From Alloascoidea africana (lineage: Eukaryota; Ascomycota; Alloascoideomycetes; Alloascoideales; Alloascoideaceae): a DNA stretch of 64,000 nucleotides. The stretch covers positions 1-64,000 of the forward strand of contig JAKTTT010000003.1 in NCBI GenBank assembly GCA_030581615.1. The letters run 5' to 3'. The notes under the pieces were generated by a model. The model did not search any database. It was not told the DNA's origin and was given only the letters and a program-made list of their open reading frames with translations. Within the stretch, counting starts at the first letter, position 1. Each line of letters begins with the position of its first letter. The position numbers were made by a program, and so were the translations under genes. This document shows, piece by piece, positions 44,296-57,677 of the stretch.

Positions 44296-47200
44296 ATGTC
44301 ACTGCCCTCCCAAAATCCTGATGTCACCGGCGGGAGCTCCTCTCACTCTGATTCGGGCAGTGAACAGAGGCCACTGAGATCTTCACATAGCAAAAATCCG
44401 TTCTTGAATATTCCCACGCTCCAGACCACTTCTGGCCAGCAAGACCGTCAACAGCAACAGCAGGGAAGACAAAATATCCCTCCTCTTACGCTTGATACAG
44501 ATACCACTCGCCTCACAGTGCCGCCTAGCCCTTCTCGACTGGAACCCGAGCTCCATTCGCCAACTTCTCCTGTGGCTGGACAGAGTAGACTCACGCCAAC
44601 CTCATCCTCAGATGCCAGGGGTAGATTCAGCTTTTCGCGGTCCATGAGACGAAACACCTCGACTGTAGGCTCTCGCCCGCGGAGCAGATCCCCGTTGAAG
44701 GAATGGAAAGAGAGCATTTCACCATCTCGTGGGACAGACTCCCAGACTCAATCTCAATCTCAAAACCAACAGCCTCTGCTGATGGAGGCCGCAGCAGAGG
44801 CAAATCTGGATGCCATTAGGAGCGGACTCAGTATCGCACTGGGAGGCGAAGGACTGAGCCAATGGCTTCCGTCATCAGACGATGAGAGAAAGTCTCCTGT
44901 GCGGGAGTCTTTCAAGAACTCTTCTCTTTATCCTCGTTCGTCGTTGTCTGTCAGAGATTCTCAACAGCAGTCACAATACCAAAGGACTAAATCTAAAAGG
45001 GCCAACTCTCCAACGAGAGCTAATCTTACAGTTCCTACCATTTCGACTATAGAGCCTCCACATCTTTCAGAGGACGAAACAGACCTGGGTCAGGGCCCAG
45101 GACAACATGACAAGGCTATTCTTCTTCAGGATCTTCAATCCAAGCCGCATTTGAGTGTGGATGACCGCTTCTACATGGCCGAGGAAGGCAATTCAGCGAG
45201 CCATCTGTCACTTCAAAGCACGCTGTCTCCAGCTCATCACTTGTCAATGGCGGTTCGTCGTATATCCTCTCGAATTGTCAAGGGCACGAATGAAAACGCG
45301 GGCACGCAACAACAGCAGCTTCCTGGTCAGCTGTTACGAACAGATTCTGGACCAAGCACAAAGTCCCCACTGAGATACTCATTTGACGACCAGGATCGGG
45401 AGTCACTGGGTCCAGAACGAGATGACGAGTCGCCGGCCGCTTCTCCCCGTTTCGGAGCCCAGTCTTCGTCAGCCGCGGTCGATGAGGAACCAAGACCTTA
45501 CTACCCCAAGCCAAGTGCACAGGATGATGCCAAACCATTTGGTACTGATGCTCACGCGCAAGCACAAGCGCAAGCTCAAGCTCAAGCTCAAGCTCAAGGT
45601 GAAAATGACCATGGCGAGTTTCATCCTCTAGAGAGTGAGCAAGAGAAGCCGCCCGAGCTGCTGCCGCTTTTTGGAAAGTCTCTTACTTTTTTCGATGAGC
45701 AAAATCCTCTGAGAAACTTTGCCGCTGAAATCACTCTTCGAGTGTGGTTTGAGCCTATGGTTGTGTTTCTCATCATTCTCCACACGGTGCTACTGTCAAT
45801 TCGCCAGTGGAATCCCCCAAAATGGGGTTATTACTACAAAGGCTGGAACTGGATGGACTGGGGCATATTCTCTGTGAACATCTTCTATACACTCGAGATT
45901 TCTGCACGTATCATTGCCTATGGCCTCTGGGATGACCGGCAAATGTACGATGAGCTGGGCATTCAAAGAGTCTCGATCCGGTCAAAGTTTATGAAACGTC
46001 AGGATACACGCAAAATTGAGTATCAATACGAGAAGCCTGTCAGTTACACTTTCCATTACTCGGGCAAGAATGGATCGGAACCGCCGAACAAGAAAAAACA
46101 GCGCGCGTTTCTCAGGAGTAGTTGGAACAGAGTAGACTTTATCTCAGTCGTGTGTTACTGGATCTCGGCCCTTCTTGCCGTGACAGGTTACGACAAGAAG
46201 CATCATCTTTTCCTTTTCAGAGCTCTTGGGTGTCTTCGTATTCTGAGACTTACCAATATCACCAAGGGTACTGTTGCTATTTTAAACAGTCTCAAAGTCG
46301 CTGCCCCACAACTAATTGATGTTGCCGTGTTTGTTTTATTCTTTTGGCTCGTCTTTGCGATCATTGGTGTTCAGAGCTTCAAGAGCTCTTTTAGAAGACA
46401 ATGTGTTTGGATAAATCCCGAGGACCCGAATGATCGATTTGTGAACTCTGAACAGTTTTGTGGTTCCTATTTGAATGCTACCACGGGCGAAAAGATGCCT
46501 TTTTTACTCGCAGATGGTACTTCTTCAAACAAGTCTAAAGGGTTTGTTTGTCCTGCAAACTCTGTTTGCCAGGTAAGTTTTTTCCGATATTCTTTCGCTC
46601 TTGGGGGTATTGTGCTAACTCTATGTAGTATGTTGAAAATCCATATGCGGGCACTTTTTCCTTTGACAATATTGTCAATTCACTAGAAGTCATCTTTATC
46701 TTTATGAGTTTAAACACTTTTTCGACTGTAATGTACAACACGATGGATTCAGATGAGATGATTGCGTGTCTTTTTTCCATTATTGGTATCATTATTCTAG
46801 GTGTTTGGATCATGAACTTGCTTATTGCTGTCATTGTCGCCTCGTTTAAAATTACAAGAGAGGAAATGGCCTCTTCGAAAAAGGAACAAAAGGAAAACCA
46901 ACCAGCACTAATGATGGGTGAAGGTGGAGCTAACAACGGTTTTGTGGGGACACCTGGGGCAGCAGACGGGGGGCCCCAGACAAAACTTAAACGTCAAAGA
47001 CACAATTTTTTGAAAAAGTTGTACGATAAAACTGCTTGGATCTGGCTTCTTGTTATCATGGCTGATCTGATTGCACAATGTATTCGAACCTCTGACATTT
47101 CAGAAGATGAGAACTCTGCTCTTTTGCTAACCTCATTTTCCCTGGCCTATGCCCTTGTTTTTGAAATCTTGTTTCGATTTGTTGGATATTTCCCCAGTTG

Positions 47201-50200
47201 GCGGACATTTTTCAAGAGCAAGAGTAATTGTTTTGACCTGGCACTAGCTATCGCAACAGCAGTTATCAACTGGCCTTCTATCAGAGATAGATTGGGATGG
47301 GCCTATTACTGGCTCACGTTTTGCCAAATTGCCCGTTTTTACCGTGTCGTTGCCGGATTCTCGTTCACCCGAAAGCTCTGGCTCAAAGTTATTGGTAATG
47401 TCAAGTCTATTGCGAATCTGTCGCTTTTCTACATTCTCATTACGTTTTTGTGTACGATCATAGCGGCTACATTTTTCGAAGGCCATGTTCCATTGGAAGA
47501 TGCATCGGAAAAATTCATCTCTTTTGTAACGCTGCCCAATTCTTTCCTTGGAATGTATCAAATCTCTACAACTGAAAACTGGACAGATGTTTTGCTCTTT
47601 ATGCAAGAGTATGCCATTTCTCCTCAGGCCCGAATATTTGGGTCTGTTTTGATTATCGTTTGGTTCATTCTCTCACAGAACGTTGTTTTGAATATTTTCA
47701 TTGCTGTGATTGCGGAGAATTTAGAAGCAACGGAAAAGGAGAAGAAGAGACAACAGGTGAAACAGTTTATGATAAGTTTCAGCAAGAAACTGAAAGCAAT
47801 TCCTAACGAATCTGCGATTGCAAGGTTTAAACGAAGACTTTTCAAAAGAAACGTTTCTGGGAACAGCCATCAACAGGCAGCAGTCAATCTTTTACTACAT
47901 GGAGTTGCTGTAGAGGAGTTTTTAAAAGATGAGGAACACAATCCCAGTAGATCTCATCCAGAAGATGAGGAGAGAAAGAGGAAGAGGAAGCGAAAGACGT
48001 ATTTTGCTGCGAGAGGTTTCCATGATAACAACAGTGATAATGACATGGATGATCCAAATGGCGAAGACCTCCGTGCAATGACATCTTCCTGGAAACGATT
48101 TTTCTGGCCTGAGTACTGGAAGAGCTATAACATGCTTTCAGTCGTCAATAAAGAGAACCCTTTTTACAAGAAGAAGTCAAACCTTGCGGCCCGAACCTTC
48201 ATCAATCCATCAACACTGGTGAAGGACGTTGTACAAGAGAATGCAAAGTTCACAGCAGACCGAAACCGCTATCTCAAGGAGAATCCCGATTTCAACGTTG
48301 TTCTTTGGCTTTTCCCACCACGACATCCTCTGCGAAGACTATGCCAGAAAATAGTTGGTCCCAGTACTGGTGATAATAGGAAAGATGGTGTCTACCCCAA
48401 CAGACGCATCAGAGAGGCCTTTTCACTAATCATGTTTTTCGCAACGGTGGCATTGGTCTCCATTGCCTGTTACACAACGCCGCTTTACCGTACTGAAAAC
48501 GGCATGAACGTTGGTATTTTCAACTGGACAGTATACACAGATATTGCATTTGTTGTGCTTTTCTCACTGGAATTTCTGATCAAGGTGATTGCGGATGGAT
48601 TCATGTTTACGCCTAATGCCTACATCCGGTCTTCTTGGAATTTTTTCGATCTGATCGTTCTCGTAACGCTTTGGATTAACCTGATTGCACTGCTCAAGGG
48701 AGATGGTGAATTGGCCAGGGCCGTTCGTGGATTCAAAGCACTCCGTGCACTCCGTATTCTCACCATCAGCGAGCGTGCACAGGACACTTTCCACAATGTT
48801 ATGGTTGCGGGTGTGGGGAAAATTATCGGTGCAGCAATTTTAGCATTATGTCTGCTCTTCCCCTTTTCGATCTGGGGGTTAAACATCTTTAACGGCAGGC
48901 TTGGTTCGTGCACTGATGGGGAGCTGGGTGCAGGCGAATGTATCAATGAATTTGCAAGCGCTGTTTTCAACTGGGATGTCCAATCACCACGAGTTTTTGC
49001 CAACAGCTATTTTGATTTTGACAAGTTTTCGCATGCTTTTCTCGTTCTTTTCGAATTAACTTCACTGGAAGGCTGGACAGACGTGTTGGAGACTGCATTA
49101 AGCAGCACTGGGGTGAATACAGCACCGGAGGCATTTGCGACCCCAGTTAATGGCATTTTTGTGATTTTGTTTAACTTTGTCTCGACAATTTTCATCCTTA
49201 CTTTGTTCATCTCAGTTATTATCAACAATTACTCCAAGACTACAGGATCCGCATATTTGACAGATGAGCAACAAGCGTGGTACGAGGTTGAAAAAGTACT
49301 TAAACTCGTAAAACCATACAAGGGTCGAAACGTGAGAGAAATGAACGTTTTGACATCTTTCTGTTACAAAACAACCATTTTGAAAAACCGCCATTGGAAC
49401 AGGTTTCTTAATGCGGTTTTGGGCATCCATGTCATATCACTAATTCTCGAAATGTATCCGGATCATAAACAAATCAGTTTGGCGAGATATATAGTGTACA
49501 TTTTCACCACTTTTACATTGTTGGTGAACCTTGGTATGAAGATTATTGCACTTGGGATTTTGAGATTTTTCGCAAACAAGAGAAATGTAATTGAGACTGT
49601 GCTTGTTAGTGGAGCATTTTCCACCTCATTTCTCTCTTTTTTCATATCTCGTGATAATTACTATGCAAATGTGAACAAGTTGTTTCTGGTCGGGATATTG
49701 TTTTTGGTTGTATTCCGCAGTGATAAGTTGGATAGACTGATGAAAACGGCAGCAGCAAGTTTGCCCTCGATTGTTTCGCTGTTGTTTACCTGGGCGGTTC
49801 TCTTTCTGGTGTATGCAATTGCAACAAATCAAATCTTTGGTCTTACGAAAGTTGGTCCCAATGGTTCTGGGAACCTGAATTTTCGAACCGTTCCAAAATC
49901 ACTGATTGCACTTTTCAAACTGAGTTTTGGTGAAGGTTGGAACGCAGTGATGCACGATTACATTATCCAACCTCCTGATTGTATTTATTCAAACAGCATT
50001 GACTCTACGGATTGTGGTAGCAAACCATGGGCGTATTCACTTTTCATCTCTTGGAACATTATCAGTATGTACATTTTCCTCAGTATGTTTGTTTCTTTGA
50101 TAACGGAAAGTTTCCGATATGTGTACCAGAATTCGGGTCCCAGATCCAGTCTTACTTATTCTGAGATTCGCAAGTTTAAACGAGAATGGCAAAAATACGA

Positions 50201-51290
50201 TACGAGCGGGACCGGATACATTGATCCGGAAGACTTGCCCAAAGTGTTACGTGGGATTGATGGAGTGCTTTCATTCAAGATTTACGATGGTCTTTTATCG
50301 GTTAAAGAATTGGAGAAGAGGTGGTTCATGAGGCGGTCAGAACAAGATCCGTACGATATTGTGCCGAGCCACGAGGCGATAAAAGAGGTGTTGAGCTCTG
50401 TGGATGTGGACGCTGTTAAACGGCAACGGGCGGTCTACGAACGGTTTATCGAGGAGGCCCATTTCAAGATGGAACTCGGTGGAGAAGTTGGCAAGGGTAT
50501 TGCATTTAGCACAGTGCTGCTCCAAATTCCACTTTACACAATGTTTGACGAGTCAAACTGTCTCAAATTGGAGGATTTCTTGGAGCGTCATTTGCTTACA
50601 CAAAAGGTCAAGAAGCGGATTCAAGAACAGAAATTGTTCAATGCGGTAAGGACAATTGCATGTCGGTTCAAGTATTTACACAATCAAAACATCAACGATG
50701 ACATTATCGAGAGTTACTATGCTGCACCCACGAAGCCTCTTTTCAGTCTTCATACGGATGGTTATAATCCTTCGATCTACGTTTCGGATTATAATCAGGA
50801 TTCACAAGCAGAATCTCCTCTAAAGTATCGCCGGTCTCAGGCCCGGGCTCAATCCCAATCACAGCCTGGAAGAGTTGACAGTATTCTGAGACATGAAGAG
50901 TTACGAATAGCGCCTGTCCCCGTTGATTCAACAACGCCCATGACGCCGCTCATGTCAGCTACAGGATCCGATCATCGATGGGCAGAGACGCGGTATCAGC
51001 CCTCGGTAGGCAGTCGAAGAGGCAGCATTGGCGATGCTGGACCTTCTTCTTCTGCTGGTCCCCAACGGAGCTTCACCAGTGCTTCTGAATCGGACACAGA
51101 CCCACTCTCACAAACGGATCTGACACGATATCTTGCATCCCACAGTATAAGTGATGGGGATGGAGACGGAGACGAATTGGAATCGTTAAGTGAGAGATTT
51201 GATCGGTCATGGGGGGAAGTTATGCGATGGGTGAATCCTGATTTGGGGAGTGATACGAATCTGAACCGACCAAGACAGGAGGAACGATGA
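44296..51290 (+). CDS. CCH1: Voltage-gated calcium channel subunit Cch1 (2 exons)
   Basis: Exons 44296-46572 and 46629-51290; 2312 residues. The 56-nt phase-0 intron has GTAAGT, GCTAAC and TGTAG. Order: a 450-residue disordered, Ser-rich N-terminus with QA repeats near 45555-45598, then four six-helix repeats. S4-like segments include FRALGCLRILRL (I) and RAVRGFKALRALRILTIS (III); repeat IV is poor in Arg. Selectivity-filter positions are N788 (MSLNTF), E1075 (TENWTD), E1573 (LEGWTD) and E1861 (GEGWNA), so N-E-E-E. A C-terminal EF-hand-like loop follows (YDTSGTGYIDPEDL, near residue 1950) and a Ser-rich tail. Cch1 with Mid1 imports Ca2+ across the plasma membrane during pheromone and ER stress. 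Longer than S. cerevisiae Cch1 (2039), mostly at the N-terminus. Confidence 0.96.
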
Positions 51291-54951: not shown

Positions 54952-56457
54952 CTACAACTTGTACTTGACCTCCGTGGTGGTCGCGCTTCCAGCGTCTGTC
55001 TGGGTCTGGGTGATGGAAACGGGTGCAAAAGGAGCAAATGGTCCAGCGGTCGCAAACTTGCCAATGGCAGGTCCAACGGGGTTCACGGCAACGGGGACGG
55101 TGACGACGGGGCTGCTCTTGGTGGTGATGTTGTTGTTGAGGAAGAACTTGTCGCCGTACTCGACCACGTTCGCAATGTATTTGCCAACAGCGGGCAAATT
55201 CTCGGTGCCGAACTGCTCCTGGCCAGTTCCCAGAATCAGGTTCTTGTACTTGGGGTGTTCGCCCAGCAGGAATGGAGTAGGCGAAACTTTGGCAGCAGCG
55301 GGAGCAAAAGCAGCGACCTTGGGAACAGTGGGTGCTGGATGGGCGGCAGAGACGACGGTGGGAGCAACTGGGAAGCTGTTGATCTGGGTGGTCTTGGTCT
55401 CAACCTCGACCTCGACATTGGTGTTGGTGTTGGTGTTGGCATCTCCCTGGACCTCGGTCGTGGTTTCTGTCACGGTGATGCCAACGTCCCTGGCGTCTCC
55501 GGCAATAACCGTCTTGCTGGCGTCCAGCTTGAGTCCGTGCTCCGTGATGACGCCTGCGACCTTGTCATCGTTATCGAAAACGAGGGTTTGGACCTTGTCG
55601 GGAACAAACTTTGCACCGAGTTTTTCCAATTCTGAGTAGACAACCGCAAGACTCTCCTTTGGCTTGGGTCCCTCGTAGTATTGGTAGTTTGCAGACAGTT
55701 TCTGGTCGCCGTCAACGTTGTTCCACTTGTAAGAGGTGTATTTTTCATCGGAGGTTTCGTACTCGTCTGAGGCCTGGAATGTGCCCTTGAAAACAGGGTC
55801 TGCGGCCCATAACTTGGCAGATTCCTCGGTAATCGCTTCTACAACGGGGACAGCTGGACCAGGAGCATATGATGTGGTGGTCTCCTCGGTTTTCGTGACC
55901 GATCCATCGAAGTTGGCGGTGGTGGTGGTTTCCTCCTTTGTGACCACGGGCTCAGGAACGATGGAAGGTTGGACATAGGTGGTGGTCTCTTCCTTCACAA
56001 CGGCCTGAGGACCAACAACAGAGGGCTGGACATAAGTAGTGGTTTCCTCTTTTACAACGGGAGCGGGACCAGGAACTGGGACGGGCTTTGTAGGGAAGGC
56101 AAAGGCAACGTCTTCGATTGGGCGAGTGGGAAAGCCGACGCTGTAACCCTGTTCGGTTCTGAAATATGGTGGCAATGAAGGAACAATTTCGGGCTTGGTC
56201 TCGACTTCGACCTCGACCTCTTTGGAAACAGTGGTCTTGGGTCCAAAAGGAGTCGCTTCAGTGGTTGTCGTTGTGGTTGTGGTCTGGTTAACATTGTCAT
56301 CGATGGTCACTTCAGGAGCAGCTTTGGGGTCCACAATTGTGACGTTTTTGTAGTCGTTTCGGAGCAGCCATAGAGCTGTGGACAGACCGTAAGAACCACC
56401 GCCGACAATCAGAACAGGGGCGGTTTTATCTGTGGGGATGGAGATTGGATTGGACAT
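54952..56457 (-). CDS. Remodelled FAD-oxidoreductase-like repeat protein
   Basis: A 501-residue intact frame. Residues 15-49 form an FAD/NAD Rossmann motif (VLIVGGGSYGLSTALWLL, then NVTIVDP), like fructosyl-amine and saccharopine oxidases, and DDNVNQ echoes their GNDINK loop. Near the C-terminus, residues 397-433 (LLGEHPKYKNLILGTG, then ENLPAVGKYIANV) match the other FAD-binding end. ELEKLGAKFVPDKVQ...DDKVAGVITEHGLKL (278-311) also fits the fold. In between, residues 131-203 are four degenerate copies of an 18-residue KEETTTYVQPSVV-type unit, flanked by Thr, Val/Glu and Pro-rich filler. The family's substrate and glycine-rich blocks near the C-terminus are altered (GQEQFG). I infer a noncatalytic or redirected protein. 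The C-terminal YKL is not a standard PTS1. The codon choice is GC-leaning and C-ending, hinting at high expression. Confidence 0.85.
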   Translation of the reverse strand: MSNPISIPTDKTAPVLIVGGGSYGLSTALWLLRNDYKNVTIVDPKAAPEVTIDDNVNQTTTTTTTTEATPFGPKTTVSKEVEVEVETKPEIVPSLPPYFRTEQGYSVGFPTRPIEDVAFAFPTKPVPVPGPAPVVKEETTTYVQPSVVGPQAVVKEETTTYVQPSIVPEPVVTKEETTTTANFDGSVTKTEETTTSYAPGPAVPVVEAITEESAKLWAADPVFKGTFQASDEYETSDEKYTSYKWNNVDGDQKLSANYQYYEGPKPKESLAVVYSELEKLGAKFVPDKVQTLVFDNDDKVAGVITEHGLKLDASKTVIAGDARDVGITVTETTTEVQGDANTNTNTNVEVEVETKTTQINSFPVAPTVVSAAHPAPTVPKVAAFAPAAAKVSPTPFLLGEHPKYKNLILGTGQEQFGTENLPAVGKYIANVVEYGDKFFLNNNITTKSSPVVTVPVAVNPVGPAIGKFATAGPFAPFAPVSITQTQTDAGSATTTEVKYKL

Positions 56458-57677
56458 TTCGTAGTTAAGATGATATTTGAATTAGGTCTTGTCTTGACAA
56501 ATGATCTAGATCTATAAGGACTTAGAAAAATGGGAAGAGCACTAAAGAAGAGAAAGAAGAAAAAAACAAAATACAAACAGCATGCTTTATATGGGCCTTT
56601 TCAAAGAGGTTTTCCCATCGACGAGATCTCCGCCCTCTGTTTACAAGTTTCCAATTTGGGTGGCTTGTGTTTGTGTTTGTGTGTTATGCTTTGTGCAAAA
56701 TGTCTTTCAGGACCAACCTCTCCATATAAGAAATAAGAAACAAAAAAAAAAAAAACAGCCCAGAGTGAAAATAATACCAAATAATATTCGCGATGTGTAA
56801 GGAAAAGGAGGGGTGGAATTTTGGAGTACTGCCAAAGGCTATTTTTCTGCGGACTTTTAGAAGTGAACCTTGAAATAGTCCAAATCTGGATTAAGGTTGG
56901 GCTGTCAAACATGTTGTTATGAAAGTCTTTTTTCATTTGGATCAATGGATTGGGATAGACTTATGGGAATACATTTGGTTCTTTCCGAACTTGAATGAAA
57001 AAAGTCCCCGGTTTCTCCTCCTTCCTACAGTATTATTTATTATCATTATTTTATGGCTTTTGGAGTTCTTCACCTAGGAGTATTCATACTTCCACCAGCC
57101 ATGTTTACCAATTACCAATTTCCCAACTTTTACTGTTTGTTTTGTACCAGCCAGCTGAATTGTGTCTGCCAAGTCCACATCTGTGTGTCGGAATTGTAAG
57201 CAGGTTTGAGCAAGACGCTTTTTTTTCAAGGGGCTCTTGAACATTGGACAGAAACAGAGACAATAATACCTGGCCAATTATTCAAATGCATGTCTGTGTT
57301 ACTCCAAAAGTTTGCCAAAACAAGCTCAATGCTCGATGTTTACTGCTTGCCAGCCCTGTTTGTTATTCACGGCGTGCAAATCCTACATCTCTGCTAGTCT
57401 AGGCTTGGCGAGGAGAATTCTGCCCTTTGCTTTTTAACCATTCTTCTTTTTCTTTTTCTTTTGCTTTTTCTGTATTTGTTTTTGTTTCTTGGATTTTGCC
57501 TTTTGACCTTGATGTTCCGGGAGGTGGGCTAATTCGAGATAGGCATCTTTTTTCGTTCTTCAAACAGAGACAAAAAGCAACCCATTGTCTTGTTTTACTT
57601 TGTGACCTCCAGAAACTAAACCCATAAGCTTTATGGTGGTGTCCTGATAGCACTAGAGGTTACAACAAGACTAAAAG

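Follow-up and report, generated by a model that had tools for sequence, protein, structure and literature searches.

The fructosyl amine oxidases, represented here by amadoriase II (PDB 3djd), amadoriase I (4wct) and PnFPOX (5t1e), are the described enzymes closest to the locus under study. According to the portions of PMC5459902 consulted, the FAD of PnFPOX is bound covalently to Cys343, which corresponds to Cys335 of amadoriase II, and its contacts include Asp41, Ser47, Ser50, Lys57 and Lys376, the last of which is replaced by Met375 in amadoriase I; a title cited in the same source describes Lys53 of amadoriase II as critical for activity. Among the titles and beginnings of abstracts listed in a search of the literature, none dealt with repeat-bearing relatives of these oxidases in fungi. 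The analysis reported here supports the descent of a small group of paralogs from an amadoriase-type oxidase, with loss of the flavin cysteine and of the stretches of the substrate domain, and with gain of strand-forming repeats.

The window analyzed covers contig C3 from its start to 64 kb, and relatives of the protein of interest, designated C3 after its contig, were sought in the whole assembly (23.18 Mb, 138 contigs). The C3 frame lies on the minus strand (54952..56457), where it runs without interruption from an ATG at 56457 down to a stop codon at 54952 and encodes 501 amino acids with neither cysteine nor internal methionine, so that the intact frame reported in an earlier note on this DNA is borne out. 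Two further intact paralogs were identified on other contigs: C24 (L026, 1351-2994; 547 aa), which is 64% identical to C3 and presents its parts in the same order, and C61 (L027, 1471-4263, minus strand; 930 aa), in which an N-terminal beta-alpha-beta unit is followed by about 550 repeat-rich residues and then by a second half of amadoriase type that is mostly preserved. The C61 array interrupts the protein behind the second Rossmann strand; residues 667-905 match 3djd in one piece (E 2.3e-52), a fructosyl amine oxidase being the best PDB match. A genome search with the full C61 protein returned, besides itself, only C3, C24 and C9, an ordinary 434-aa FAD oxidase that matches amadoriase II residues 8-398 (E 2.3e-63) and in which counterparts of Lys53, Cys335 and Lys368 are present, while that of Glu280 is missing. 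A search with the DAO family, in which 14 of 39 candidates were scored and C3 was not listed, could have missed further worn relatives. In line with the reused enzyme fold proposed in the earlier note, C24 and C61, the two paralogs that bear repeats, each lack part of the catalytic set.

The standard reading of CTG was used throughout, because several CTG codons fall on leucine positions common to C24, C61 or amadoriase II, and alternative decoding of this codon was rejected. The neighbors of C3 in the window look like DBP10, MAP1, CCH1 and glycogen synthase genes, a gene content that indicates a fungus and probably a yeast; two adjoining plus-strand ORFs (44296-46686 and 46704-51290), separated by what is probably a short intron or a frame break, presumably belong to a single CCH1-like calcium-channel gene. 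Elsewhere in the genome, an ORF starting at position 4364 of L027 on the plus strand, which we assume to be metacaspase-like, stands head to head with C61, with about 100 bases between the longest frames, and a DAO-family gene on contig C53 (G000, 98326-99643) has stops in both of its matched pieces (two TGA and three TAA), which makes it a probable pseudogene or intron-containing oxidase. Outside this genome, one of 49 candidate stretches in prokaryote contigs proved to be an ordinary Borreliella DAO protein, and the corresponding count for C3 in viral contigs was none of 10.

The ancestry of C3 is apparent both at the family level and in its segment order. The protein scores 35.6 bits against the Pfam DAO family (PF01266; cut-off 27.9), with the best stretch restricted to aa 15-46, and the scores of C24 and C61 are 39.8 and 73 bits. 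Its top PDB matches are fructosyl amine oxidases (3djd, whole-protein E 1.3e-13), and four of its pieces, aa 10-59, 203-227, 268-320 and 389-433, are colinear with residues 4-54, 67-91, 162-217 and 338-382 of amadoriase II. The first piece is the only one that is significant by itself against 3djd (26.1 bits, i-E 3e-5). The C-terminal piece reaches 15.3 bits (i-E 0.056), but several fructosyl peptide oxidases find their best stretch here (6iwe, whole E 3.4e-7), and one single comparison pairs the piece with the ordinary oxidase C9 at E 1e-4. These matches uphold the amadoriase-type ancestry, the N-terminal dinucleotide-binding unit and the second FAD-contact block that had been read from the sequence earlier. 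Taken singly, the inner pieces are weak against 3djd (aa 203-227, 7.3 bits, i-E 5.8e3; aa 268-320, -1.2 bits, i-E 15). Both are supported by C61, where the equivalent of aa 268-320 starts a 155.8-bit alignment to amadoriase II 165-402, and the EESAKLWAADPVFK segment within aa 203-227 is also present in C61 and C24. Residues 92-161 and 218-337 of amadoriase II, which we take to form the substrate domain of the fold, have no match in C3. Hence, the replaced core described in the earlier note stands as far as the substrate-domain stretches are concerned, but it is not a complete replacement, since two oxidase stretches backed by C61 remain.

Read from its N-terminus, C3 begins with a beta-alpha-beta unit (aa 10-46; 56320..56430) that carries the glycine motif GGGSYG and an aspartate closing strand 2, both of which are retained in C3 and C24 by alignment. 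A short remnant of the flavin loop and a linker, first threonine-rich and then rich in proline and valine (aa 47-133; 56059..56319), lead to four KEETTT or TEETTT repeats (aa 134-197; 55867..56058). These are followed by the EESAKLWAADPVFK segment (aa 203-227; 55777..55851), an overlapping, new 45-residue block (aa 222-266; 55660..55794) that is identical at 43 of 45 positions in C24, and a middle alpha/beta segment (aa 267-325; 55483..55659). No Pfam match was obtained for aa 203-267, and the one PDB match to this region (E 0.82) was taken as chance. A second linker (aa 328-388; 55294..55476) stands in place of amadoriase II residues ~218-337, including Cys335, and precedes the C-terminal FAD-contact block (aa 389-437; 55147..55293), in which the ASGRGFK of amadoriase II aligns with QEQFGTE, in agreement with the altered glycine-rich motif noticed earlier. 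All these features lie on the minus strand.

The positions that matter for flavin binding and catalysis have diverged to different degrees among the paralogs. Cysteine is absent from C3 (0 of 501 residues) and C24 (0 of 547), which makes the cysteine-linked flavin of the family impossible in them, and in C61 the flavin cysteine of amadoriase II aligns with Gly834. At the Lys53 position C3 has Gln58 and C24 a lysine by uncertain alignment, with threonine runs directly afterwards, and the N-terminal alignment of C61 ends at residue 47, before this position. On the other hand, C61 keeps Lys775, Glu779 and Lys867, which align with Lys276, Glu280 and Lys368 of amadoriase II, the first two of them presumably active-site residues. 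With glycine at the flavin cysteine and these three residues kept, C61 looks like an intermediate state. The FAD-contact lysine itself (Lys376 of PnFPOX, Lys368 of amadoriase II) is Glu419 in C3 and also glutamate in C24, a change that is not decisive because amadoriase I, which is active, has Met375 there according to the consulted parts of PMC5459902. The case for loss of catalysis is carried by the missing cysteine and the missing substrate-domain stretches of C3 and C24.

It could be argued that C3 is still a redox flavoprotein, with FAD held non-covalently in the Rossmann half, an oxidase or electron-transfer role at a new active site and repeats that only recruit partners. Preservation of the GGGSYG unit, of the middle alpha/beta segment and of the aspartate that follows strand 2 is compatible with such a function, as are the three aligned residues of C61, the lysine that C24 may keep at the Lys53 position and the dispensability, within the family, of a FAD-contact lysine that is methionine in amadoriase I (PMC5459902, in the part consulted). 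The absence of any cysteine and of the ~218-337 stretch from C3 and C24, together with the glutamate at the FAD-contact lysine, speaks against it, and we consider a surviving redox function unlikely.

EETTT occurs four times in C3 (first glutamate at aa 137, 156, 175 and 191), three times as KEETTT and once as TEETTT, and was seen at most once in any of 20,000 shuffles of the protein. The four KEETTTYVQP-type repeats recognized earlier are thus present as EETTT, but the full KEETTTYVQP is found in only two of them. When folded alone, aa 128-202 are predicted to form four beta strands, one per repeat, with a pLDDT of 82.6, a value to be read bearing in mind that AlphaFold can over-predict strands in alternating sequence rich in threonine and valine. 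Modeling of the whole protein from its single sequence gave a poor result (pLDDT 40.3, pTM 0.24), but one in which the N-terminal beta-alpha-beta unit and the same four strands are visible; the Rossmann core envisaged in the earlier note is supported by the sequence and not by a reliable whole-protein model. A structure search with the repeat model gave 563 matches up to E 10, with none at E <=0.001 among the best 50 of 563.

In C61, six units of 59 residues share 46-58% protein identity in pairwise comparisons (average 52%) and 56-66% identity at the DNA level. Synonymous sites are heavily changed among them (mean pS 0.74) and mean pN is 0.31, so that the units look old and constrained. Each unit consists of two tandem hairpin-like halves with glycine at the turn, and a seventh, shorter unit can be aligned to the final KEETTT pair of C3 and to its C24 counterpart. 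On the basis of this alignment of short sequences, the KEETTT repeats seem to belong to the C61 repeat family in a shortened form. The four predicted strands and the likeness to the units of the C61 array suggest that the C3 repeats are probably not mere filler. A profile of the C61 repeats had no PDB match at E up to 10, and one of the six units matched a Pfam family at E 0.19, which was taken as chance. Reading C3 as a hydrophilin or LEA protein was abandoned, valine making up 12.6% of its residues. KEETTT did not occur among the literature matches listed, and, with regard to a septal-pore link, the consulted parts of PMC5309816 and PMC10023807 make no mention of FAD or oxidoreductase.

Comparison of C3 with C24 reveals that conservation follows the oxidase-derived parts. 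Identity amounts to 82% in aa 1-46, 87% in aa 203-263, 75% in aa 264-327 and 83% in aa 389-437, and drops to 49% in aa 47-202 (linker 1 and repeats), 43% in aa 328-388 and 54% in aa 438-501. The corresponding dN/dS values of 0.08 (aa 1-46), 0.51 (linker 2) and 0.30 (tail) are rough, because synonymous change is saturated in four of the seven segments. Thus, within the limits of these rough estimates of constraint, the oxidase-derived blocks have been conserved between both proteins while the flavin cysteine and the substrate-domain stretches were lost. Aa 19-44 and 238-266 are the longest identical runs, standing out against diverged linkers, and they might be taken to indicate a nucleotide sensor, in which FAD, NAD or ADP-ribose bound to the Rossmann piece would control how the repeats or the 45-residue block are assembled or exposed. 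Conservation of a glycine-rich turn may, however, be structural, and this alternative seems doubtful.

The tail of C3 (aa 438-501; 54955..55146, minus strand) ends in EVKYKL, and its last six residues are the same in C24. Fungal oxidases of the amadoriase kind are often peroxisomal, and a structural role in peroxisomes could be envisaged from these identical endings and from the SKI at the end of C61. SKI and YKL are not known as canonical targeting signals, and the ordinary oxidase C9 ends in TLK, which leaves a peroxisomal structural protein as an improbable explanation.

Codon use and composition point to abundant products. Codon adaptation was measured with a reference set from this genome, six ORFs that should be highly expressed (one partial EF-1A, two GAPDH and three HSP70, labeled from family searches and scoring 0.650-0.782 themselves), and reaches 0.707 in C3, 0.735 in C24 and 0.727 in C61, as compared with 0.609 in C9 and 0.519-0.679 in 16 other window ORFs. 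Composition contributes to these values, since the conserved core of C3 scores 0.663 when taken alone, below two ordinary window genes (0.669 and 0.679), and its linkers 0.743; ORFs taken for mitochondrial HSP70 and EF-Tu are also high (0.785 and 0.763). The strong expression proposed in the earlier note is therefore probable, but its argument from GC-leaning codons does not hold here, because the genes expected to be highly expressed favor codons such as GTT and GCT. Methionine is absent after the start from all three proteins (0 of 1,975 residues), with chance probabilities of 3.0e-5 for C3, 1.2e-5 for C24 and 4.0e-9 for C61 at the rate of 2.06% observed in the 16 window ORFs, and the cores are equally devoid of it (0 of 219 core residues in C3, 0 of 379 in C61). 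Sulfur sparing and avoidance of oxidation are possible reasons for this absence. Together with the adapted codons, the lack of internal methionine suggests that C3, C24 and C61 are probably abundant.

The promoters of C3 and C24 share, on the same strand, the 15-base word GTAAACAGAGGGCGG, located at -187 (56630..56644, minus strand) and -116 from the respective ATG. In 200 mononucleotide shuffles the longest shared word reached 14 bases once, and the 13-base core of GTAAACAGAGGGCGG occurs twice in the genome, in these two promoters, as against one occurrence of its reversed control. The word may have a regulatory function or be left over from the duplication. STRE, HSE, Ste12, Tec1, TATA, FAR and UASINO motifs, in the consensus forms that we assumed for them, show no excess common to the C3, C24 and C61 promoters over mononucleotide shuffles.

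These data also bear on the possibility that C3 is a decaying pseudogene or a functionless relic, as the disappearance of its flavin cysteine and substrate-domain stretches, together with its low-complexity expansions, could suggest. With three intact frames, core segments conserved better than the remainder, adapted codons and a promoter word found before C3 and C24 only, this reading was rejected as very unlikely. Finally, the abrupt switch from oxidase-like to repeat sequence might betray an assembly chimera or retained introns that create a false composite frame, a concern already raised in the earlier note, but related layouts in two paralogs on other contigs, linkers that diverge in frame between C3 and C24 and the codon adaptation of the C3 linkers make such an error hardly credible, and it was rejected.

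We therefore favor, with a probability of roughly 0.55, the explanation that C3 is a non-catalytic and probably abundant Rossmann protein that displays beta-strand repeats, acts as a scaffold and perhaps binds a dinucleotide. In the scenario that we envisage, an amadoriase-type FAD oxidase was duplicated and gave rise to a family of non-catalytic proteins. A strand-forming repeat array would first have entered the loop that follows the second Rossmann strand, with loss of the flavin cysteine, yielding the state of C61; the substrate domain would then have been deleted and the repeats reduced to a few short KEETTT strands, yielding the state of C3 and C24, an order of events that is deduced from three paralogs of one genome. 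What remains of the FAD-binding half would probably form a single small domain that brings the repeat loops together. The beta repeats would bind one another or a partner, the protein being abundant and serving as a scaffold, and the GGGSYG unit might still hold an adenine dinucleotide, either for stability or as a switch. A more speculative extension, which we regard as rather unlikely, is that the family consists of abundant structural proteins in which the residual Rossmann half binds a flavin or another dinucleotide that switches the assembly of the repeats, resulting in a scaffold controlled by redox nucleotides and built with almost no sulfur amino acids.

When set against the systems described so far, C3 presents the same order of segments as amadoriase II, amadoriase I and PnFPOX, with which it shares the GxGxxG beta-alpha-beta unit, the aspartate after strand 2, the W..DP.F segment, the middle alpha/beta segment and the C-terminal FAD-contact block. 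Unlike these enzymes, C3, C24 and C61 lack the flavin cysteine and carry inserted repeats, and C3 and C24 in addition lack the substrate-domain stretches and have glutamate at the position of Lys368. Within the genome, C9 belongs to the DAO family like C3, but it has no repeats and its codon adaptation is lower. C61 shares with C3 the N-terminus, the place of insertion, a KEET...DG...KEE unit and the conserved core blocks, and differs from it in that the oxidase's second half is largely kept and that six 59-residue repeats take the place of short KEETTT strands. As in pseudoenzymes in general, judging from the parts of PMC10211241 consulted, conserved catalytic motifs have been lost from a known enzyme family; in contrast to them, C3 has lost stretches of a whole domain and has repeats inserted into its fold. 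Pseudoenzymes are common, but the genome analyzed here seems to hold, side by side, an ordinary relative, an intermediate that combines much of the fold with a repeat array, and end states in which mere pieces of the cofactor half are left, so that along the series formed by C9, C61, C3 and C24 the disappearance of an enzyme and the emergence of a repeat protein can be tested one step at a time.
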